Below, one piece after another: positions 1,037 through 62,898 of a DNA stretch of 64,000 bases. The notes below the pieces were generated by a model. It ran no database searches and had not been told where the DNA came from. It worked only from the letters and a program-made list of their open reading frames with translations. Within the stretch, counting starts at the first letter, position 1, and each line of letters opens with the position of its first letter. The position numbers were made by a program, and so were the translations under genes. Source of the DNA: Pseudobutyrivibrio ruminis CF1b (lineage in GTDB: Bacteria; Bacillota; Clostridia; Lachnospirales; Lachnospiraceae); NCBI RefSeq assembly GCF_000424005.1, contig NZ_AUJB01000009.1, positions 310,001-374,000 on the forward strand, written 5' to 3'.

Positions 1037-1903
1037 GTGGTTGATTTTGTAAACGCTGTAGATGCCTTCATCGATGATTATTTCAATGTAAATATTCCCG
1101 ATGTTTCCATCACAGATGTAATCGAGGTTTTTATAATTGCATATTTTATGTACCACCTGTTGGTTTGGGTTAAGAACAGCCGCGTTTGGATGCTTATCCG
1201 AGGCGTGCTGATTATCATGCTGTTCTTCTTACTGGCAGCTATTTTCCAGATGAATACCATTCTGTGGTTGGGCGAGAAGCTGGTATCAGTAGCGGTGACG
1301 GTGCTCATCGTGGTGTTCCAGCCAGAGCTTCGTCGAGCACTGGAGCAGATTGGTCGAAGAAAAATCACTTCGCTGTTCACATGGAACATCCTTAAGACAG
1401 GCGCTAAGAAATTCGATGACTCTACAATCGTTGGTCTTGTTACAGCCTGCTACGAGATGGGAGCAGTTAAGACTGGTGCTCTTATCGTCGTGGAAAAGGA
1501 TATGCAGCTCACAGAGTTTGAACGTACAGGTATTGGCATTGATGCAGTGGTCAGCAGACAGCTGCTTATCAATATATTTGAAAAGAACACTCCACTTCAC
1601 GATGGAGCTGTCATCGTCCGCGGAGACAGGGTGGTTTCGGCTACCTGCTATCTGCCACTTTCTGATAACATGGCCCTTTCAAAGGACCTTGGAACCAGAC
1701 ACAGAGCGGCAGTTGGTATCAGTGAGGTATCTGATTCCCTCACTATCGTTGTTTCCGAGGAGACAGGAACTGTTTCTTACGCCAGAGAGGGACGCATCGT
1801 TCGCGATGTAAAGGAAGACGAGCTTATTGCAGAGCTTAAGCGTCTCCAGAATCCTGAGGAAGCGGCAGAAGCGTTCACAAAAAGTGAAAAGGAGGGCAAA
1901 TAA
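1037..1903 (+). CDS. cdaA: Diadenylate cyclase CdaA (c-di-AMP synthase)
   Basis: Makes the second messenger c-di-AMP from two ATP, at the membrane. Of 288 residues, three N-terminal transmembrane helices (about 30-50, 55-75, 80-100) precede a DAC domain. Its two signature motifs are visible: DGA (PLHDGAVIV, about residue 187) and RHR (GTRHRAAVG, about 220). The start is GTG 1037, with a good site GGAAGGA at 1023-1029. The stop TAA is directly followed by the ATG of cdaR. The cdaA-cdaR-glmM order is the usual Firmicutes arrangement, in which CdaR and GlmM modulate the cyclase; c-di-AMP controls potassium and osmolyte uptake and envelope integrity. Confidence 0.97.
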   Translation: MVDFVNAVDAFIDDYFNVNIPDVSITDVIEVFIIAYFMYHLLVWVKNSRVWMLIRGVLIIMLFFLLAAIFQMNTILWLGEKLVSVAVTVLIVVFQPELRRALEQIGRRKITSLFTWNILKTGAKKFDDSTIVGLVTACYEMGAVKTGALIVVEKDMQLTEFERTGIGIDAVVSRQLLINIFEKNTPLHDGAVIVRGDRVVSATCYLPLSDNMALSKDLGTRHRAAVGISEVSDSLTIVVSEETGTVSYAREGRIVRDVKEDELIAELKRLQNPEEAAEAFTKSEKEGK

Positions 1904-3151
1904 ATGCAGCAGAAAATAATTAATGCCCTCACAAAGGACGTAGGATTAAAGATTTTAGCTATCGTATTCTCGTTCCTGCTTTGGCTTGTTGTTGTAAATA
2001 TCGATGATCCTAAGCAGACCAGAACATTTACCTCAGTTGTTACAGTTACCAACGAGGATGTGCTTACCCAGGCTGGTAAGCTTTACGAGATAAAGGATGG
2101 CGTCAATACAGTCAGCTTCAGAGTTACAGCAAAGCGTTCTATTATAGAGAAGCTTTCGCCTTCAGATTTCTCTGCGGTGGCTGATATGAACAACCTGGAA
2201 AACAGTGAGCGTGTGCCGGTTACAATTGCGGCGAAATCATACGTTAACTACATCACTATTTCCAGCAGACAGAATTATCTCTATGTAAATCTTAAAGATC
2301 TTACTACAGAGAGATTCCTGATTGATGCTCAGACATTTGGCGAATTGGAGCCAGAGCTTGCAGTTGAAGAAGTGACCTGCAGCCCTACAGTTATCACTGT
2401 TACGGGACCACAGGATATTGTAAATAAGATTGAATCTGTTGTTGCTTCAGCAAACATCACTGGTGTTACCGGCAACTTTACAGAAAACGTTATCCCTAAG
2501 TTTTACGATGCTAAGGGCGAGGTGGTAGATACATCATCACTGAACATGTCAGTATCTACTGTCAGCGTCAGCGTTTCATTCGTAAATACGAAGGCAGCAG
2601 ACATAGTGGTTAAGACCAGCGGCATCCTGTCGCCTGAGCTTACCCTTGGAAGTATAAAGACAGATCCATCATCTGTAATGATTATTGGTGAGCCTAGCGC
2701 ACTTAATGAAGTGAGCAACATCACCATTCCAGAAACAGTTATCAATCTGTCAAACCTTACAGGCTCATTCACCACATCAGTAGATATTTCAGCTTATCTG
2801 CCTGAGGGTGTTCAGCTGGCAGAGGGTACCTCTTCTAAGGTTTCTATCTATGTCACTATGGCTAATGAGACCGCATCTACAGTCACTGTTCCGGCGGACA
2901 ACATCGAACTTCGAAACGTTCCTGAGGGACTAGCAGTTTCATTGGATGTAGAAAAAATCACTACCGATGTATTTGGTAGCGAAGAAGCTTTGGCTGGACT
3001 AAAAGCTGATAATGTTAAGGGCTACATTGATTGCTCTAATCTCAGCGTTGGCGAAGGTCAAAACGCAGCTTTACAGTTTGATAACCTTGAGGGTATCACT
3101 GTTCAGAATACATCAGTCACTGTTACGGTAATTGAAGCGAAAAAAGAATAG
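1904..3151 (+). CDS. cdaR: YbbR-domain regulator CdaR
   Basis: A 415-residue membrane-anchored protein with one N-terminal transmembrane helix (about residues 14-32) and an extracytoplasmic part made of repeated YbbR-type beta domains, seen as recurring V-T-V and S-V-S-V-S strands with a spacing near 80 residues. Proteins of this family bind and modulate CdaA. The ATG at 1904 abuts the cdaA stop codon, so the two are translationally coupled. About four repeats is typical of the family. The gene is intact. Confidence 0.94.
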   Translation: MQQKIINALTKDVGLKILAIVFSFLLWLVVVNIDDPKQTRTFTSVVTVTNEDVLTQAGKLYEIKDGVNTVSFRVTAKRSIIEKLSPSDFSAVADMNNLENSERVPVTIAAKSYVNYITISSRQNYLYVNLKDLTTERFLIDAQTFGELEPELAVEEVTCSPTVITVTGPQDIVNKIESVVASANITGVTGNFTENVIPKFYDAKGEVVDTSSLNMSVSTVSVSVSFVNTKAADIVVKTSGILSPELTLGSIKTDPSSVMIIGEPSALNEVSNITIPETVINLSNLTGSFTTSVDISAYLPEGVQLAEGTSSKVSIYVTMANETASTVTVPADNIELRNVPEGLAVSLDVEKITTDVFGSEEALAGLKADNVKGYIDCSNLSVGEGQNAALQFDNLEGITVQNTSVTVTVIEAKKE

Positions 3152-3190
3152 ATTTCGCTTACAGTGAAGAAAAAGAAACGAGGATTAATA

Positions 3191-4540
3191 ATGGGAAGAT
3201 TATTTGGAACAGACGGAGTCAGAGGAGTAGCTGGCTCTGAGCTTACAATAGACCTTGCTCGTGCACTTGGTCAGGCAGGAGCTTACGTGCTTACAAAGGA
3301 GGCTAGCCACCAGCCTACAATCATCGTTGGTTGTGACACTCGTATCTCAGGCACAATGCTTGCATCTGCACTTATGGCAGGCATCTGCTCCGTTGGAGCA
3401 AATGCAGTTTACGTTGGAGTACTTCCAACACCTGCAATCGCTTACCTTACTCGTAAGCACAAGGTTGACGCTGGAGTTGTTATTTCAGCCAGCCACAACC
3501 CAATGGAGTTTAACGGAATCAAATTCTTCAACGGAGATGGCTTCAAGCTTTCTGATGAGTTAGAGGATGAGATTCAGGCTCTTATCGAAGCAGATATGAA
3601 GGGCGTAAGCCTTCCTACTGGCGCAGAGATTGGAAAGATTGATTATCGTTTCGATCTTGGTCGCGAGTATGTAGATTTCCTTAAGAAGACAGTTCCACTT
3701 GATTTATCAGGATTAAAGATTGTTATCGACTGTGCTGAAGGTGCTTCTTACCGCACAAGCGTAGCTTGCCTTTCAGAGATGGGTGCTGAGCTTATCACAA
3801 TTCACAACAATCCAGATGGAACAAATATCAACAGCAACTGCGGAAGTACTCACATGGATGAGCTTAGAGCTCGTGTTGTTGCAGAGAATGCACAGGTTGG
3901 TCTCGCATTTGATGGCGATGCCGACAGAATGCTTGCAGTAGATGAGAAGGGACGCCTTGTTGACGGTGACCAGATTATGGCTATCTGCGCTAAGCACATG
4001 AAGGACAAGGGTACTCTTAAGAAAGATACCTGTGTTGTTACAGTAATGACAAATCTTGGCTTCACACTGATGGCAAAGGAACAGGGCATCAATGTAGAGG
4101 TTACAAAGGTAGGCGATAGATATGTATTAGAAAACATGCTTGCCAAGGGCTACAACATCGGCGGCGAGCAGAGTGGTCACGTTATCTTCTTAGATGACAA
4201 CACCACAGGTGATGGACTTCTTTCAGCTCTTCACCTTCTTCGTGTTCTTGTGGAGACAAAGAAATCTCTTTCAGAGCTTGCATCTATTATGGATGTATTG
4301 CCACAGGCACTTGTAAATGCAAAGGTACCAAACCACAAGAAGGAAAGCTACATGGAGTATCCTGAGATTGCATCAGCAATCGCAGAGCTTGAGAAGAAGT
4401 TCGCAGGTGAAGGCCGTGTCCTTATCCGCCCATCCGGCACAGAGCCTTTGGTTCGTGTCATGATTGAGGGCAAGGACCAGACAGAAATCGAAAACGACGC
4501 CAAAGCGTTAGCAGAATTAATAACAAATACAATGCTTTAA
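3191..4540 (+). CDS. glmM: Phosphoglucosamine mutase GlmM
   Basis: Interconverts glucosamine-6-phosphate and glucosamine-1-phosphate, feeding UDP-GlcNAc for peptidoglycan and for the polysaccharides made downstream. From ATG 3191 the protein has 449 residues, the usual family length, and begins [12 protein letters not shown]. The phosphoserine loop SASHNP (about residue 100), the metal loop DGDADR (about 241) and the phosphate-binding RPSGTEP near the C-terminus are all present. An earlier in-frame GTG at 3164 would add nine Lys-rich residues, but GAGGA lies 6 nt before ATG 3191, so the later start is preferred. It is third in the cda operon. Confidence 0.97.
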
Positions 4541-7856: not shown

Positions 7857-7912
7857 TTGGTTGATAAGACAACATCGCACATACTAGATGATATATTTGG
7901 GAGATGATGAAA

Positions 7913-10597
7913 ATGAGAGGAATAATTGAGGGCATAAGGTTTTTCTTCGCCACACACAGAGCGGCTCGTATTGCTTTAGCTGCTGTTGTGGGAGCATCAG
8001 CACTTGGTGCAGGTGGCGCAGGTATCTATGCAATCTTAAATGATGACGTCGCATCAGATGAGGTAGTTGAGGAAGTTGAGGTGGAAGAAGAGGCAGCAGC
8101 CGAAGATGTTTACATCCCAGCTTTCAAAAACATCGTCCTCACAAGTGAATCCCTTGAAAAGGATTTAACAATTTACATTTCAGATACAGAAGACAACGCT
8201 ATTACAGGCGTGCCTTTCCAGATTAAGCTTATTAAGCCTAAGGAGGCTGAGAGCTTACAGGCATCAATTGATGAGATTAAGAAGATTGATTCAGACATCA
8301 GAGAGATGGCTGGCGGAGCTTTAGGTACAGAAGAGGCAGAAGATACTGAAGAAGTTAAAGAAGAGACAACAGAGGAATCTACTGAGGAGACAGCACAATC
8401 TGATTCAGAAAAGATTCTTGCATTACTCGAATCAAGAAATGTAGATATTACAGTAACTGACGAGAATGGAGAAGTTGTTGATACTCAGAAGGGTCGCATC
8501 AAGGATGACCCACTTTATCAGCTGATTCTCGATAAAGAAACAGCAATTCAGTCATATGCTATGGCTGTAAAGGAAGCGGAGGGTACTATCGTCACTGATG
8601 AAGATGAAGATGGTGTCATCGCTGAAAAGGACATGGAGCCAGGCGATTATGTAGCCTGCCTCATGTACGACTTCGACAACGAAGAGATTTATGAGCCTTC
8701 AGATTTTGCAACTGCAGTCAATGTAAAGGACAAGGTTGAGTTCAAGGTTCAGAAGGAAATCAAAAAGCAAATCAAGAAGGATGTAGCAGCCGAGGATAAT
8801 CAGCCTAAGGAAGCAGCTCCTGTAGAGGCAGTTCTCAAGGATACAGTAGAGTATGTAGCTTCAAGCAAGGTTGAAAGCGGAGGCTCAGCAAAGGGAATCA
8901 AGGGTTCTGACATTGCAGCACCTAAGTCTACAAAGGGCACAAGCAAGGCTACAAAGAAGGATGGCGGAGTTACTTCTGTAGTACACAAGGTCGCAGCTAA
9001 GACATTTAATGTAATTATCAAATGTGTAGCAGAAGATGGTAAGGAGCTTAGCAAAGAAACCAAAGCTTTTGCTCAGAACAGTGAGCAGACATTTGAAGCA
9101 AAGACAATTGATGGATATACTCTTTCTTCTGAGAAACAGAAGAAGATAAAGGTTGATAAGGACAACATTACAGTTGAGTTCAAGTACAAGAAGAACCAGC
9201 CAAGTCCTACACCTACAACTACACCAAGTGTAAATCCTAGCCCAACAGCTACACCTACACCAACAAGTACTCCAAGTCCTACAGCTACACCAACTCCTAC
9301 AACAGAGCCTACTAAGGAGCCAACAACAGAGCCTACTAAGGAACCTTCAAAGGCTCCAAGTTCAAGTCCTAGTGCTTCACCAAGCCCTAGCACAACGGAG
9401 CCAAGTCCTACAGTTGTTGATGGTGCAGCAATCATTACTAACAGACCAGTAGCAGCTTCTATGAACATGACTAGATTCATGGCAGCAAAGCTTTCAAGAA
9501 GAATTGCAGCAAACACTACAGAGGAAAAGGCTACTCTTGATATGAGCTACTCTAACGGTGTGTTTACTATCTCAGCTACTAATAATGTTGGTTCGGTAAC
9601 AGTAAATGGCACAGCTGTCACAATGAAGGATGGCAAGGGTACATTTACAGTTACAAAGGATGGAGATTACACACTTGCAGGTGTGGCAACATTCTCAGAT
9701 AAGGCCACAGACAATACACTGAAGGTCACTTACACAGTTTCAGGCTATGGCACAGCATCTACAGAAAGACTTAAGGATAAGGAAGGACATGAGCTCTTCC
9801 TTGATGAGGGACTTACAAAGCCAGCTACTGCAGCAGATTTTGCAGCAGACAAGACTTTCTACTATAAGGCTCCAAACTATGTATATTACGGATGGCAGTC
9901 AATTAACGGAGTAAGCTATTTCTTCGATAAGAACGGAAACAAGGTAACAGGTGAGCAGGTAATCCAGGGTGTTAAATACAACTTTGGTCCTGACGGAGGC
10001 CTTCTTGTAAAGGGCAATGGTATCGATGTTTCCAAGTATCAGGGAAAGATTGATTGGAATCAGGCTAAGTCAGCTGTAAGCTTCGCAATCATCCGTTGCG
10101 GATACCGCGGACAGACCGACGGACAACTTCATGAGGACCCTTACTTCTATCAGAACATGAAGGGGGCCAAGGCGGCAGGCGTTGCAACAGGTGTTTACAT
10201 CTTCTCACGTGCTGTCAACGAGGCAGAGGCCGTACAGGAAGCATCAATGGCTGTAGCTATGGCCAATAGCGCAGGTGGATGCCCATACCCAATCTTCATC
10301 GATATGGAGGATACAGCAAGAGGCGGCGGATTATCAGCTGCACAGCGTACAGCTATCGCAAACGCATTTATCTCTACAGTACAGTCATCAGGCTACAAGG
10401 CTGGTGTTTACTGCAGTAAGAACTGGATGAACCAGAGAATGAATGCAGGCGGTATCAACGGCAACGCTTACATCTGGATCGCTCAGTACAACACATCATG
10501 TACTTACAGCGGTAAGTATTCAATGTGGCAGTATTCTTCAAAGGGTTCAGTTCCTGGTATCAAGGGTCACGTAGATATGAATAAGTCCTTCTTCTAA
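7913..10597 (+). CDS. Secreted multidomain GH25 muramidase
   Basis: A surface peptidoglycan hydrolase of about 894 residues. Order: N-terminal signal or anchor helix (about 20-40); an acidic Glu/Val-rich segment; an extracellular region with SpaA/Cna-like character; a Thr-Pro-Ser linker of PTPT and TEPTKEP repeats (about 430-500); a beta-rich segment; choline-binding-like repeats (GWQSINGVSYFFDKNGN); and a C-terminal GH25 domain. The GH25 domain begins GIDVSKYQGKIDW and has the catalytic acidic FIDMED. Three ATGs are possible; GGGAG at 7899-7903 sits 9 nt before ATG 7913, so that start is preferred over 7904. Its place inside a glycan locus suggests wall remodelling during export or attachment of polymer. 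Confidence 0.88.
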   Translation: MRGIIEGIRFFFATHRAARIALAAVVGASALGAGGAGIYAILNDDVASDEVVEEVEVEEEAAAEDVYIPAFKNIVLTSESLEKDLTIYISDTEDNAITGVPFQIKLIKPKEAESLQASIDEIKKIDSDIREMAGGALGTEEAEDTEEVKEETTEESTEETAQSDSEKILALLESRNVDITVTDENGEVVDTQKGRIKDDPLYQLILDKETAIQSYAMAVKEAEGTIVTDEDEDGVIAEKDMEPGDYVACLMYDFDNEEIYEPSDFATAVNVKDKVEFKVQKEIKKQIKKDVAAEDNQPKEAAPVEAVLKDTVEYVASSKVESGGSAKGIKGSDIAAPKSTKGTSKATKKDGGVTSVVHKVAAKTFNVIIKCVAEDGKELSKETKAFAQNSEQTFEAKTIDGYTLSSEKQKKIKVDKDNITVEFKYKKNQPSPTPTTTPSVNPSPTATPTPTSTPSPTATPTPTTEPTKEPTTEPTKEPSKAPSSSPSASPSPSTTEPSPTVVDGAAIITNRPVAASMNMTRFMAAKLSRRIAANTTEEKATLDMSYSNGVFTISATNNVGSVTVNGTAVTMKDGKGTFTVTKDGDYTLAGVATFSDKATDNTLKVTYTVSGYGTASTERLKDKEGHELFLDEGLTKPATAADFAADKTFYYKAPNYVYYGWQSINGVSYFFDKNGNKVTGEQVIQGVKYNFGPDGGLLVKGNGIDVSKYQGKIDWNQAKSAVSFAIIRCGYRGQTDGQLHEDPYFYQNMKGAKAAGVATGVYIFSRAVNEAEAVQEASMAVAMANSAGGCPYPIFIDMEDTARGGGLSAAQRTAIANAFISTVQSSGYKAGVYCSKNWMNQRMNAGGINGNAYIWIAQYNTSCTYSGKYSMWQYSSKGSVPGIKGHVDMNKSFF

Positions 10598-57352: not shown

Positions 57353-59374
57353 ATGTGGTATGATTTTGTGGATTTTTTATTTAACAACAGCATTGTTATA
57401 GACAAATCTGTTTATGTTACTACTCTTATCGGCGAATTAACTGTAAGTGCCATCTATTTAAATTTCTGTCAGTTTATAGCCGGCCATGGTGACAATGGGG
57501 AGCATTTATACCTTGGCGTAAATTTGGCCGACTTTTATTACAAAGATAACCTAAGTGTTATTACCCGTCTAATTAAGAGCCGGGTCTTTTTTCTATCTAT
57601 CATCTTTCAGATTTTCTACAAACCGGTTGTTGCTGTGTTTGGCCACAGGTTTCAAGCTGGCAAATTGTGTTTTTTCAACTGTCTTTGGTATGGAATCACC
57701 GCTGTTTTTTTCACACTTTTTATTTATGTGATTTTAAATTGCATACGATACGTGTATGATGCTAACGGTTATTTTTCGAAAAATAAAAAGATTATAAAGA
57801 CCAAACGTAATCATAGATTCTTGAAGAATTGTATAGGGGATTTGATTCGTAAGAGTCGAATTGAAATCCAATGTAACAAATATGAGATGATCAATGGGTT
57901 CACAAAAGCTGATGAGGACAAAGTTTATGTGGAGGATTATGCTGATTTGGTGGAACTTGTTATGAATCCATATACCTGCTATGGGATTAAAAATGGTTTG
58001 CTTGTACGAGTTCTTTATTTTATCGAGAAAAGAAAAAGAAAACCTTATATATTCAATAAGGAAGTACAGTTGCTTCGCAATATGGCAGAGAATTCTTATT
58101 TCTATGACTGTAAGAAATATCAGGGTTTATTGATACGAAATTTGAAAAAATTGATAGAAGATAATACAGAATATATCCAAGCAGATGGCGCAAAAGATTA
58201 TTATTTGAATAATAGATATGATAAGCAGTTGGAAGAAATAGCTGAACATATTTTTAAGGAAAATAACTCTGATATTAAGAATATGTTAATTGAATTCTTC
58301 AAGCAGGCAGTAGGCAAGAATGACATCACATGTGCAATTTTACGCCATATTTTGATAGAGTGGTTAAACAAGGTCGCTTACGAAGAAGTTGAAGAGGAAG
58401 AAGTAAAAAAAATATTCAAAAGTCTTCGCTTTGTGGACGATGAGTTAGGTATAGATTATATTATTTTTGATGTCTTAAAGGAGAATAATTATAGTAAGGA
58501 ATTTGCCGATAATGTTCCTGAAATATTGAATCCAACTAAGGCTACGAACGTGTTAATTTCGTTAGTAATGTATTTTGCAATATATAAGTTCAGATTTGAT
58601 TGGAAGTACATAGACATAGATCTATTACGGAATATAGCCAAGAAGGAAATGGTGTGTAATATTAAAGGGCAAGGATATCCCTTTGATGAGAAAACGGATA
58701 TAAGGTACAAAAATAAAGTACAATCATTCATTAGAAAAACTTGTTTTAGTCATCGTTTTGAAAGTGATATGCTGGACTATATATTCGCCACTTCTGATGT
58801 CACGATAACTACAGAATGGATAGACAATACATACAAGAGTTTCCCTGAATTGGCCTTTTATTGGATTGTAATAAAACTCCTTGTATTTCATAATGATTTC
58901 AACTTATGGGGTGTAAAGGGAGACTTGAACTTTAAGGTAATGTTTATAAATGAGATATCAAAGCATCCGGAGTTACTTGCCTATAGTGGGATGAGAGACT
59001 TCCTGATGGATCTAAAATCCCATTGCTTAGGGGATGTTAAGGGACTGCCAAAGGAACTGAGAATTTCTTTTAATAGCCTATTATTAATCGGTGCAGATTT
59101 GGATGCATTAAGTGAGAAAAATACAGAATTGTATTTGGACAAGCACAGCGGAAAATATTGTTTATATAAGCTTTCTAATTTTGAAGGCAGCATTGATAAC
59201 GAAAAAAAGAAAAAGCTTTACGATGTGGTAAAAGAATCTTTCAGGAATTATAACTGTAAAGAGGAAGAATATGTCCAAACTATAGTAGATGATGCCAAAA
59301 AAGTTGGCTGGGAAATCAATTACATTAATGCTGAAAAAATGAAAAAACTACTCAATGAAATAAATGCTTCATAA
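57353..59374 (+). CDS. Large unrecognised membrane-anchored protein
   Basis: A 673-residue orphan. Two to three hydrophobic segments lie in the first 145 residues (about 25-43, 75-95, 108-130). The remaining 530 residues are cytoplasmic-type, Lys/Glu-rich and helical, with no motif I recognise. The base composition is AT-rich like the island genes rather than the flanking glycan genes. CGGGGG precedes the ATG. It may be an isolated foreign gene; a defence or signalling role would be speculation. Confidence 0.75.
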   Translation: MWYDFVDFLFNNSIVIDKSVYVTTLIGELTVSAIYLNFCQFIAGHGDNGEHLYLGVNLADFYYKDNLSVITRLIKSRVFFLSIIFQIFYKPVVAVFGHRFQAGKLCFFNCLWYGITAVFFTLFIYVILNCIRYVYDANGYFSKNKKIIKTKRNHRFLKNCIGDLIRKSRIEIQCNKYEMINGFTKADEDKVYVEDYADLVELVMNPYTCYGIKNGLLVRVLYFIEKRKRKPYIFNKEVQLLRNMAENSYFYDCKKYQGLLIRNLKKLIEDNTEYIQADGAKDYYLNNRYDKQLEEIAEHIFKENNSDIKNMLIEFFKQAVGKNDITCAILRHILIEWLNKVAYEEVEEEEVKKIFKSLRFVDDELGIDYIIFDVLKENNYSKEFADNVPEILNPTKATNVLISLVMYFAIYKFRFDWKYIDIDLLRNIAKKEMVCNIKGQGYPFDEKTDIRYKNKVQSFIRKTCFSHRFESDMLDYIFATSDVTITTEWIDNTYKSFPELAFYWIVIKLLVFHNDFNLWGVKGDLNFKVMFINEISKHPELLAYSGMRDFLMDLKSHCLGDVKGLPKELRISFNSLLLIGADLDALSEKNTELYLDKHSGKYCLYKLSNFEGSIDNEKKKKLYDVVKESFRNYNCKEEEYVQTIVDDAKKVGWEINYINAEKMKKLLNEINAS

Positions 59375-60093: not shown

Positions 60094-60116
60094 GAAATAG
60101 ATTTTGGGTAAAAAAG

Positions 60117-60147
60117 AAGCCTGTGGATTTGGTTCCACAGGCTTTTT
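60117..60147 (+). terminator. Intrinsic terminator 1
   Basis: AAGCCTGTGGA pairs with TCCACAGGCTT around a 6-nt loop, then TTTTT-type tail. It begins 24 nt after the stop codon at 60093. Confidence 0.9.
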
Positions 60148-60165
60148 GTTGTTATTGGGGGAGTA

Positions 60166-60196
60166 AAGCCTGTGGCGTTGTGGCTGCAGGCTTTTT
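60166..60196 (+). terminator. Intrinsic terminator 2 (tandem, related to terminator 1)
   Basis: AAGCCTG at 60166-60172 pairs with CAGGCTT at 60187-60193 with further weak pairing inside, and is followed by a T-run. It looks like a duplicated copy of the first terminator. Confidence 0.8.
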
Positions 60197-60205
60197 GTTT
60201 TGGTT

Positions 60206-60474
60206 TTATTGTGCTGAGAATTATATGGCTGGGCATAAATATGGAATGATGTTTTTATTATTTATGCCTGGATTATATGGCTGGGCATAAATAAGACGGA
60301 AAGGTTGTGGAATTTATGCCTGATTACTTTGTGGCGGCATAAATAAAGTGAAAAGGCTAGATATTTATGCCAGTGCAGTGAGAATAGGCATAAATATAAA
60401 GACAATGGCGTATATTTTATGCCAGCACAGTACCTAAAGGCATAAATATCCGGCACTAATTAATTATTTATGCC
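60206..60474. repeat. Array of ten alternating 10-bp arms with 52-bp period
   Basis: Forward GGCATAAATA arms start at 60232, 60284, 60336, 60387 and 60439; reverse (A)TATTTATGCC-type arms start at 60259, 60311, 60362, 60414 and 60465. Periods are 51-52 bp on both strands. Spacers inside each forward-reverse pair are 16-17 bp and those between pairs are exactly 15 bp, with mostly unrelated sequence. A degenerate extra half-unit (TATTGTGC) precedes the first. Two reverse arms have one change. There is no coding potential. The rest of this 550-bp gap, to 60646, is AT-rich with no gene. Confidence 0.9.
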
Positions 60475-60646
60475 AAGAGTCATTGATTATACATTTATTA
60501 CATATGCAACAGAGTGATATTTAGAAATTTTATTGAAATATCCCATAGATAAATAACGTCCTCGAGCTTAAAATAAAAGAACTTCTATAAAAATTTTTTC
60601 TTCAAAATATTTTTTTTCGTTTTGAAAATCCCAAATGAGGTATAAA

Positions 60647-61438
60647 TTGAATACAAAAGAGATGTTAAACTCTCGCATGAGCTATTTGGATGCTATTGTT
60701 TCTGAAAAATCGAGAGATATTAAAATTGCGCCCAAGGGTAAAATCAAAATTGTTAAGCACAATTCAACTTATCAATATTATATTAGAGAAAATATAAATG
60801 ATTCCCAGGGGAAATATATAAAAAAAGAGAATATTGCATTGGCGAAAGCTCTGGCACAAAAGGATTATGATCAAAAGGTACATGATTTAGCTACAAAAGA
60901 ATTGAAGCTTCTCGCAAAACTGAAGGATCTTTATAAAAATGGTGATTGTGATGCATATATTGAAAGTATGAGACCCTATAAGGCAGAACTGGTTTCGCCG
61001 ATAAAGGAACCTGATGAACAGTATATTAAAAACTGGGTGGAACAAAACACTAAATTAGAGGAAACATTCATGAGCGAAGGCCTTATCTATGACAATGGCA
61101 AGGGAGTCATGATGCGCTCTAAATCTGAAGTCATCATTTCAAAGATATTAGATGAGAAGGGAATTCCATACATCTATGAGAAGTCAGTAGCCCTCTCAAA
61201 ATTCAAAACAGTGCGCCCTGATTTCACTATTCTTGATGTGAAAAACAGAAGAGAAATCTATCTCGAGCACTTGGGCCTGATGGATGATGGTGAATACTTT
61301 GCTAAGAATGTAAAGAAAATAGCTGATTATGAGAAAGCCGGAATCTATCTAGGTGACAGACTGCTTATCACATATGAAACAAGAAAAGCGCCCTTAAATA
61401 CGCATCTTCTTGAGGAAAAGCTTTTAAAAATGTTATAA
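60647..61438 (+). CDS. PD-(D/E)XK nuclease-like protein of unknown function
   Basis: About 263 residues. A helical, Lys-rich N-terminal half (1-130) precedes a nuclease-like half with RSKSEVIISKILDEKGIPY (Glu about 163), RPDFTIL (Asp about 195) and REIYLEHLG (E-x-x), the order E-D-E of PD-(D/E)XK folds such as very-short-patch or Card1-like enzymes. Start TTG 60647 is preferred: GAGG at 60637-60640 is 6 nt upstream and matches other TTG starts here, whereas ATG 60635 overlaps that site. It is the first gene after the palindromic array. Confidence 0.75.
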   Translation: MNTKEMLNSRMSYLDAIVSEKSRDIKIAPKGKIKIVKHNSTYQYYIRENINDSQGKYIKKENIALAKALAQKDYDQKVHDLATKELKLLAKLKDLYKNGDCDAYIESMRPYKAELVSPIKEPDEQYIKNWVEQNTKLEETFMSEGLIYDNGKGVMMRSKSEVIISKILDEKGIPYIYEKSVALSKFKTVRPDFTILDVKNRREIYLEHLGLMDDGEYFAKNVKKIADYEKAGIYLGDRLLITYETRKAPLNTHLLEEKLLKML

Positions 61439-61499
61439 TAGCTTATGTTTAGCTTTTGGCAGAAACAATATTAAATATAAAGGGACGAAACCAAATAAT

Positions 61500-62462
61500 A
61501 TGGGAAAGAAACTATCAGTAGTAGTATCGGTATATAATGAGGAGCTGGGGCTCAGACAGTTCTATGAGCACACTACTCCTATTTTGAAAGAGATGTCACA
61601 GCAGTCTGGCTGGGATTATGAGTTGATTTTTGTAAATGATGGCAGTCGCGATGGCAGCCTGGATTTGCTCAAAGAATTTGCAAGCCAGGATGAGAAGGTG
61701 GCAGTTGTTAATTTCGCTGCGAACCGTGGTCATGAGGCTGCGATGATTGCAGGTATTGATTATGCATCTGGGGATGGTGTGGTTTGTATGGACGCAGATT
61801 TGCAGCATCCACCAGAGTCTATTCCAGCTATCGTTGAAAAATTCAATCAGGGATATGACGTAGTTTCCATGATCCGCACAGCCAGAGCTGATGCGGGAAT
61901 CTTCAAGAGAATCACATCAGCTGCATTCTATAAGGTGATGAATGCCCTTTCTGGAAAGACAAAGTTCGAGAATAATTCTTCGGATTTCTTTGCGATTTCA
62001 CGCCGCGTAGCATTAGTGCTTAAACAGGATTACCGCGAGCGTGTAAGATTCCTTAGAGGCTACGTACAGAACGTAGGCTTCAAAAAGACTACGCTTGAGT
62101 TTGAAGCCAGCGCCAGAGTGGCCGGCGAGAGCAATTACAATTTACGTGCTCTCGTAAAGCTTTCACTTAACGCCATCTGCAATTTCTCAGATGTGCCTTT
62201 AAAGATGGGAATCTATGCCGGAGTATTCTCGCTGATTTTAGCGTTTATATTGATGATTTATTCTATCGTGCAGTATTTCCTTGGCACCGCGCCTAATGGA
62301 TACTCGACACTTATCGTTGTTCTTTGCTTCATGTTCGGTGTGCTTTTCATAATTTTGGGATTTATATCCGAATATTTGGCAATAATTTTTGCAGAAGTTA
62401 AGAATAGACCAATATACATAGTTGATAGTATAATTACAAAAGACGGGGAAGAACTTAAGTAA
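61500..62462 (+). CDS. GtrB/ArnC-type family 2 glycosyltransferase
   Basis: A 320-residue polyprenyl-phosphate glycosyltransferase with VVVSVYNEELGLRQF, FVNDGSRDGS (about 47), the metal-binding MDADLQHPP (about 98), FRRY-like RFLRGYVQNVG and two C-terminal membrane helices (about 240-260, 275-300). It is a paralogue of the enzyme at 55009. GGGACGAAACC precedes the ATG. It is followed by a small unknown gene and the CapF gene. Confidence 0.92.
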   Translation: MGKKLSVVVSVYNEELGLRQFYEHTTPILKEMSQQSGWDYELIFVNDGSRDGSLDLLKEFASQDEKVAVVNFAANRGHEAAMIAGIDYASGDGVVCMDADLQHPPESIPAIVEKFNQGYDVVSMIRTARADAGIFKRITSAAFYKVMNALSGKTKFENNSSDFFAISRRVALVLKQDYRERVRFLRGYVQNVGFKKTTLEFEASARVAGESNYNLRALVKLSLNAICNFSDVPLKMGIYAGVFSLILAFILMIYSIVQYFLGTAPNGYSTLIVVLCFMFGVLFIILGFISEYLAIIFAEVKNRPIYIVDSIITKDGEELK

Positions 62463-62484
62463 TTTACATAAGTGGGGTTGAGTT

Positions 62485-62886
62485 ATGCTTAGTTCAAAAA
62501 ACAGAATAGTTAACGAGAGATTTTATGATGCTTACATTCTTTTCGACGATATGCTTGCCCAGCGATTCAAGCTGGAAGAAGGCGGTGTCGTAAAGTACAT
62601 GGCCAAAATGAAGGAGTGCTACACCGAGGCCAGAGAACATATCCCTGAGTGGGATGACACCTTCAAGCGATTACAGCATCTTCAGGCCAGATTCAATTCA
62701 TTGAAAGATGGCAAAGTAGCTTTCGAACATTTTCAGGGCAAGGATGAAGATGTGGTTTGGATGTCTGTTTTCAAAGAAAAAATGGATGCTGAAGCAGATG
62801 TGCTTTCCAAGTATTCAAAGATCGATTTCAGCAAAAAGAAGAAGGATGAAGGATTCTTCGGAAAGCTGTTCGGACTATTTAAATAA
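62485..62886 (+). CDS. Small charged protein of unknown function
   Basis: A 133-residue, mostly helical, Lys/Glu-rich cytoplasmic protein. It ends in a basic Phe-rich tail (KKKDEGFFGKLFGLF) that could be an amphipathic membrane-binding helix. No motif is recognised. It is 22 bp after the GT2 gene and before a terminator, so it ends that transcript. Confidence 0.75.
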   Translation: MLSSKNRIVNERFYDAYILFDDMLAQRFKLEEGGVVKYMAKMKECYTEAREHIPEWDDTFKRLQHLQARFNSLKDGKVAFEHFQGKDEDVVWMSVFKEKMDAEADVLSKYSKIDFSKKKKDEGFFGKLFGLFK

Positions 62887-62898
62887 ATGAGATATTCT

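Follow-up and report, generated by a model that had tools for sequence, protein, structure and literature searches.

We consider it likely that the repeat array described here is a series of double-stranded DNA docking sites for the nuclease encoded beside it, which would bind as phased dimers and carry a private specificity module. The array lies in a window of 64,000 nucleotides (the whole stretch of DNA that was analysed) from Pseudobutyrivibrio ruminis CF1b, and is an example of a more general system with two parts, a nuclease gene and an array. A search of open-access journal literature returned no earlier description of such a nuclease-array system.

Array and partner gene in the window

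In the initial annotation, the array was described as ten 10-bp arms in strict alternation with a period of 51-52 bp, and it is real: the best alternating chain that can be built in the 1 kb around it comprises 10 arms, compared with at most 4 in 100 dinucleotide shuffles. The 8-mer GGCATAAA / TTTATGCC is common to all ten arms and the alternation is strict, but the full 10-mer GGCATAAATA is present in only eight of the ten, as the minus arms at 60311-60320 and 60414-60423 deviate from it at the last one or two positions. Plus arms follow one another at 52, 52, 51 and 52 bp, and minus arms at 52, 51, 52 and 51 bp. The distinction between exact and varying spacers holds on recounting: all four minus-to-plus spacers are exactly 15 bp, whereas the plus-to-minus spacers vary by one base, at 16-17 bp measured from the 10-mer or 20-21 bp measured from the 8-mer core. 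The extent, given earlier as 60206-60474, is narrower for the array proper, which starts at 60232, or at 60220 when the duplicated flank ATTATATGGCTG is included. Coordinates are collected in Table 1.

Table 1. Positions in the window of the array, its partner gene and the adjoining features
Feature	Positions	Strand	Remarks
Array, ten alternating inverted arms GGCATAAATA / TATTTATGCC	60232..60474	.	Period 51-52 bp
Dyad 1 (fixed-length unit)	60259..60293	.	Minus arm 60259-60268, N15, plus arm 60284-60293
Dyad 2	60311..60345	.	Arms 60311-60320 and 60336-60345, N15
Dyad 3	60362..60396	.	Arms 60362-60371 and 60387-60396, N15
Dyad 4	60414..60448	.	Arms 60414-60423 and 60439-60448, N15
Unpaired end arms of the array	60232-60241 and 60465-60474		
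Two similar terminator-like hairpins just upstream of the array	60111-60150, 60166-60199	+	Repeat and inverted repeat
Partner gene, 267-aa protein	60635..61438	+	ORF of 267 codons, 160 bp downstream of the array
Predicted beta-hairpin, codons 36-51, putative DNA-recognition element	60740..60787	+	Model strands 36-42 and 45-51; residue scans
Nuclease domain, codons 147-267	61073..61435	+	Active-site residues, fold matches
Inserted cassette (array and gene), approximate	60206..61409	.	Left edge known to about 100 bp

Genome-wide, there are 23 copies of the 10-mer. Eight are inside the array, and the other 15 compare with 13 for a reversed control pattern. The paired form TTTATGCC-N13..17-GGCATAAA is restricted to the array within its own genome (4 places), and the 28 remaining genomes of the genus lack it. 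The array DNA has one match outside its genome (G057, locus L040), a lone stretch of 33 bp set in unrelated sequence, which we attribute to chance, and a search of the 60 kb-region sequence against Rfam gave six matches at E up to 5, all far under the gathering scores. The terminator-like hairpins just upstream probably insulate the array from the upstream gene.

An AlphaFold2 model of the partner protein (mean pLDDT 91) has an N-terminal domain, in which a beta-hairpin is placed between two long helices, and a C-terminal PD-(D/E)XK nuclease domain. The predicted alpha-beta-beta-beta-alpha-beta core and the acidic active-site residues are those that define the PD-(D/E)XK superfamily, and E165, D196 and E211 are jointly kept in 140 of 142 homologs. 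From this model, the partner is assigned as a PD-(D/E)XK-type nuclease that looks active. The nearest folds for residues about 150-267 are the catalytic domain of the homing endonuclease I-Bth0305I, Bax1 and TnsA; the likeness is in fold alone, and to our knowledge none of the three has this N-terminal domain or a private array. A fold search with the N-terminal half gave just coiled-coil and prefoldin-like matches and was uninformative; an AP2/integrase-arm fold would be a speculative assignment for this domain.

Database models add little. Neither Pfam nor NCBIfam has a model for the nuclease family; when 29 members were scanned against Pfam, no family was found in more than two of them, the best being RecX_HTH1 (5e-4, in two). 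Searching sequences of solved structures with the partner protein gave nothing under E 0.3. The PADLOC model PDC-S68, a candidate defence system, matches the C-terminal part only (E 4.5e-27), and membership was rejected because just the last 130 positions of the 1221-position model align. Elsewhere in the window, at 7904-10597, an 897-aa ORF has a proline/threonine/serine-rich repeat linker (repeats at 9200-9336) and a C-terminal part that, by its motif, looks like a GH25-type lysozyme.

A family of nuclease genes with private arrays

Homologs are present in 33 of 61 sampled relatives and in 28 of the 29 within the genus, and were collected as a set of 146 loci with 147 homologous ORFs; proteins shorter than 225 residues were excluded from the alignments, which kept 142 of the 147. 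When alternating inverted 8-mers are scanned for, chains of at least 5 arms turn up upstream of the gene in 91 of 139 flanks, downstream of it in 6 of 135, and in 1 of 695 shuffled sequences. Under a stricter regularity rule, regular arrays are found in 104 of 139 upstream and 9 of 135 downstream flanks, and in 3 of 417 shuffled sequences; the two upstream counts differ because this rule accepts 4-arm arrays whose periods agree. No regular upstream array was found at 35 of the 139 homologs. Two loci with irregular chains (L107 and L140) are omitted from several array statistics, and arrays sharing a 14-mer were collapsed to 54 for phasing or, by a different rule, to 64 for promoters and position. 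Among nine later loci from four other genera, seven have an array.

The genome of the window has nine paralogs, all with an array, eight of them upstream and one (L047) downstream only; the upstream arrays of L041, L045 and L046 have just 4 arms. Arms differ from paralog to paralog (those of L042, for example, read TTACGGG), and similar arms are found in 3 of 75 same-genome pairs compared with 8.3% of 2851 different-genome pairs. The array is usually close to its gene, at a median of 66 bp (64 arrays), and lies exclusively downstream of it at L047, L103, L217 and L238. Arrays on both sides of the gene are found at L046, L151, L153, L156, L212 and L216. At these six loci the arms are the same on both sides, and those of L151 form two similar copies; recombination between such flanking copies could delete the gene, so that an array alone would remain.

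Full-length homologs are narrowly distributed. In a phylum-wide sample they are present in 5 of 398 genomes, all in the family of the window, and 15 further genomes match partly, nearly all in the nuclease domain alone. The 36 named loci from genome collections are mostly from ruminant-gut Lachnospiraceae or other Bacillota bins, with three from Treponema that have no regular array. Three phage records contain homologs, one of them nearly full length (26.7% identity) and without an array. Eight plasmid records have the nuclease domain only, mostly inside ATPases or helicases, and eight viral loci likewise have the nuclease domain only, with no regular array. Searching viral contigs for the arms gave 50 stretches with one dyad apiece and no array. 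In G219, G107, G395 and the plasmid matches H4-H11, the lone nuclease domain stands at the end of ORFs of about 1000-1270 residues or within genes annotated as AAA ATPases or helicases. Gene context around the 146 loci is mixed, the biggest recurrent flank family being found at 15 of them; the families were counted unnamed and in the flanks alone, and at that level neither a ParA-type NTPase partner nor a cognate methyltransferase is recurrent.

Repeat lengths across the family cluster at 42, 52-53, 63, 73-74 and 84 bp, corresponding to 4 to 8 turns of B-DNA. The larger arrays have repeat lengths of 52-53, 63 and 73-74 bp, while 42 and 84 bp are found in L045, L148, L089 and the downstream array of L047. 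For the medians of 54 independent arrays, the best step is 10.5 bp, with phase -0.01 and R 0.848; the first 30 arrays gave R 0.86 with a Rayleigh p of 1.9e-10. The periodicity peak is broad, with R >0.79 from 9.5 to 11.5 bp in the first 30 arrays. Taken by themselves, the 16 later arrays do not point to 10.5 bp in particular (R 0.854 at 9.5 and 0.825 at 10.5), because nearly all of them are 5-turn arrays. One array is off-phase, with a median of 57.5.

Jumps in the gaps within arrays appear to be the sharper evidence for phasing. Jumps of at least 8 bp are found in 13 independent arrays; in 10 of these, one gap keeps its length while the other changes in steps of 9-12 or 19-21 bp, as in L069, where gaps of 43, 22 and 33 accompany a constant 30. 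Both gaps vary in the other three. With one gap fixed and the other jumping by whole turns, the arrays can be read as a rigid dyad repeated at integral DNA turns.

The sequence of the arms tracks the N-terminal domain of the partner. When pairs are limited to a nuclease-domain identity of 0.5-0.85 and an N-domain identity <0.8, arm similarity correlates with N-domain identity with rho 0.46 over 662 pairs from 77 arrays, a value reached in 0 of 2000 permutations. At nuclease-domain identity of at least 0.7, every one of the 51 pairs whose N domains are at least 0.6 identical has similar arms, as against none of the 5 pairs whose N domains are <0.4 identical. An earlier and smaller test over all pairs of 45 arrays, which did not control for the nuclease domain, gave rho 0.04 for the N domain (123/1000, not significant) and a small but significant rho of 0.13 for the C domain (4/1000).

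With relatives collapsed, the residues that best track the arms are 47, 51, 43, 201, 50 and 40, in that order. Region 38-64 holds only 5 of the top 15 residues and outscores the rest, a result matched in 0 of 1000 permutations. The fourth-ranked residue, 201, belongs to the nuclease domain. Residue 52, which ranked first before relatives were collapsed, drops out. Residues 40, 43, 47, 50 and 51 are located on the beta-hairpin of the model, which we propose as the DNA-recognition element.

At one locus, the array and the N-terminal domain have been exchanged jointly, with the nuclease domain retained. This locus is on contig C3 of the genome of the window, and its flank is 87-89% identical to that at the same place in relatives G008 and G022. 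Apart from a leader of 34-59 bp before the array, no match extends over the array and codons 1-139; identity resumes at codon 140, at 80-83%, and continues into the downstream flank. Protein identity is 0.79 for the nuclease domain and 0.17-0.19 for the N domain, the arms are CTCACGTA versus the GCATATAA type, and the periods are 65 versus 74. Relative G009 has neither array nor nuclease at this place. Type I restriction specificity subunits likewise have a swappable DNA-recognition module fused to a conserved part; unlike in those systems, there is no recurrent methyltransferase neighbour here, and the proposed recognised sites are clustered beside the gene itself.

The cassette in the window is optional. 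Its flanking genes are found without array and nuclease in G008, G009 and G026; in G022 (L118, G022:C24) they are present but rearranged, with the match to 61408-62887 inverted relative to both neighbours. The last ten nuclease codons (61408-61439) coincide with a promoter-like TTGAGG-N18-TATAAT, which precedes the glycosyltransferase gene following the nuclease and is kept in relatives without the cassette, and the right junction is therefore placed at about 61409. A second optional insert lies beside the array cassette: a 673-aa ORF at 57353-59374, with no Pfam match beyond E 0.22, is missing in G008, G009 and G022, where its neighbours are adjacent. Among three loci with empty relatives, the junctions differ. 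At one of them, L201 (G000:C7:20000-27000), an insert at 1901-4260 that is absent from G008 and G009 holds the nuclease, the array and a 304-aa ORF (alpha/beta-hydrolase-like, named by eye), and the flanks at the empty site in G008 overlap by 17 bp.

Selection on the arms and the competing readings

In 14 close pairs across the family, 20 of 1160 arm positions differ (1.7%), compared with 346 of 2638 spacer positions (13.1%); the pairs were hand-chosen, and the arms were defined from one member of each, somewhat favouring the arms. These counts show that the arms are conserved over the spacers and indicate that they are under selection. The spacers of these pairs are 44-99% identical and differ by point changes, not by replacement.

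One reading, modelled on type III toxin-antitoxin systems, is that the array is transcribed into a tandem-hairpin leader or antitoxin RNA by which the nuclease is bound or held in check. The anatomy is suggestive, with the repeats directly upstream of a nuclease gene as in ToxIN/CptIN, where direct repeats of a pseudoknot RNA accompany a Kid-related ribonuclease in the account cited (PMC4627078). Promoter-like sites, scored with a promoter matrix, lie upstream of 17 of 64 arrays and in the last unit or the array-gene gap of 3 of 64, and a TTGAC/TATNNT-type site is found within 350 bp upstream in 25 loci, mostly of one relative group. Where such a site precedes an array, the array would be transcribed, and some arrays probably are; the array in the window has no promoter-like site above background (p 0.57 and 0.92). 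In L055, L042, L069, L031 and others, which are related cassettes, a near-consensus TTGACA-N17-TATATT is found about 90-250 bp before the array.

The pattern of substitutions does not fit RNA hairpins. Conserved columns of the arms contain 239 changes. A change recurs in the paired arm in 10 of 206 and in 4 of 203 comparisons, less often than in a neighbouring arm of the same orientation (26 of 363); the latter recurrence reflects only duplication. Transitions in the arms are pair-keeping (G-U) in 29 cases and pair-breaking in 33 (p 0.70). RNA from the array in the window is predicted to fold by pairing of distant arms and not as five separate hairpins, steps of about 10.5 bp would be unexpected for RNA hairpins, and some arrays sit downstream of the gene. 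With inverted DNA half-sites, no base-pair compensation and a DNase-type PD-(D/E)XK fold in place of a Kid/ToxN-type endoribonuclease, membership of the type III systems, as far as the cited account describes them, was rejected, and we regard control by a structured RNA as quite unlikely.

It is still less probable that the variable spacers serve as RNA guides, as in TIGR-Tas arrays. The resemblance there lies in two alternating short repeats (8-10 bp here) with two variable spacers per unit, in repeats that are constant within a locus and differ between loci, and in an adjoining effector gene, here a nuclease, with the array upstream or downstream of it (features of TIGR as outlined in PMC12045711). 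TIGR-Tas, in the same outline, has 36-nt RNA-guide units with 9-nt spacers and a Nop-domain protein (PMC12045711). The arrays studied here have DNA-phased units of 42-84 bp and two repeats that are mutual reverse complements, and the Pfam matches of the 29 members scanned, at E up to 0.1, include no Nop domain beside the PD-(D/E)XK fold; on both unit length and protein domain, membership of TIGR-Tas was rejected. Spacer evolution by point differences and the covariation of arms with the protein also argue against guides.

A mobility or recombination site would have the nuclease insert, duplicate or move the cassette, like a TnsA-type transposase part or a homing endonuclease. Arrays are mostly one-sided, however, and only 3 of 75 loci with an upstream array of at least 6 arms repeat the same arms many times downstream. 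The three loci compared yielded neither a common insertion site nor a consistent target duplication, and the mixed gene context also speaks against mobility, which we regard as improbable. A further candidate is a centromere- or domain-like anchor as in sopC of the F plasmid, with the protein marking the locus and the nuclease fold having some other role. The sopC site consists of twelve repeats of 43 bp, roughly four turns apiece, and a dimer binds the inverted repeat within each of them (PMC9178275). Our arrays are alike in having tandem repeats near integral turns (4-8) and an inverted repeat per unit, to which we propose that dimers bind, but sopC/SopB has one array per plasmid and a ParA partner (PMC9178275), whereas here nine separate chromosomal arrays with different arms, each adjoining a nuclease gene, are found in one genome. 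The flanks hold no recurrent partner gene, and the active-site residues of the nuclease are kept almost throughout the family; an anchor is accordingly very unlikely.

Of the interpretations offered in the initial annotation, a multi-site protein-binding array with helical pitch is thus well supported, as far as sequence comparison goes, by phasing, arm conservation and protein covariation, and a series of RNA hairpins is disfavoured. The 52-bp pitch was rightly equated with five turns of B-DNA, which holds in the window and extends to 4-8 turns in the family, and the claim that arms are kept while spacers mostly vary is borne out by the close pairs. The opposite of a recent tandem duplication without conserved spacing or a linked protein was found: spacing is conserved and a nuclease gene, overlooked at the time, is linked.

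Proposed docking and possible self-control of the nuclease

Returning to docking on double-stranded DNA, its parts differ in strength. It is very likely that the protein binds the arms, and binding as phased dimers is probable. Each dyad, with two inverted half-sites at a fixed distance, would bind one dimer through the N-terminal beta-hairpin. Successive dyads are 4 to 8 whole turns apart, 5 in the window, so bound dimers would all face the same side of the helix, where cooperation between them would be possible. As the half-site sequence is private to each paralog, each nuclease would dock on its own array alone. The recognition domain together with its array would form a single specificity module, transferred and altered as a unit and joined to a conserved PD-(D/E)XK domain.

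For function, our first choice is self-control, in which the array acts as a repressing element for the gene, as a trap for the nuclease, or as both; we put this forward tentatively, as the most likely single function at somewhat less than an even chance, ahead of mobility and then of RNA-based control. Self-repression or sequestration is preferred because an active-looking nuclease must be kept off the chromosome. A simple operator at a fixed place is weakened by the varied array positions (downstream only or on both sides at some loci), which favour a home site or sink as much as an operator. The nuclease, dangerous if unrestrained, would be released only when the array is lost, displaced or out-titrated, in defence or in conflict between elements.

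A more specific and rather doubtful version is a DNA antitoxin, a new kind of genetic conflict element in which the nuclease is held captive on its own array through cooperative phased docking. Loss, displacement or dilution of the array (phage takeover, plasmid loss, allele replacement) would free the nuclease to destroy DNA, and module exchange would keep the nine elements of one cell from cross-reacting. The question of whether a stretch of DNA can serve as the antidote of a toxic enzyme would, if the docking reading is right, become directly testable.

If the docking explanation is true, the family would offer recognition domains and targets in dozens of naturally occurring and apparently separate pairings, from which the rules by which a small beta-hairpin domain reads DNA could be deciphered. 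It would also be a nuclease system with a phased array of DNA sites as its control element, and would give a testable function to hundreds of small, mostly unannotated gene clusters of gut bacteria.
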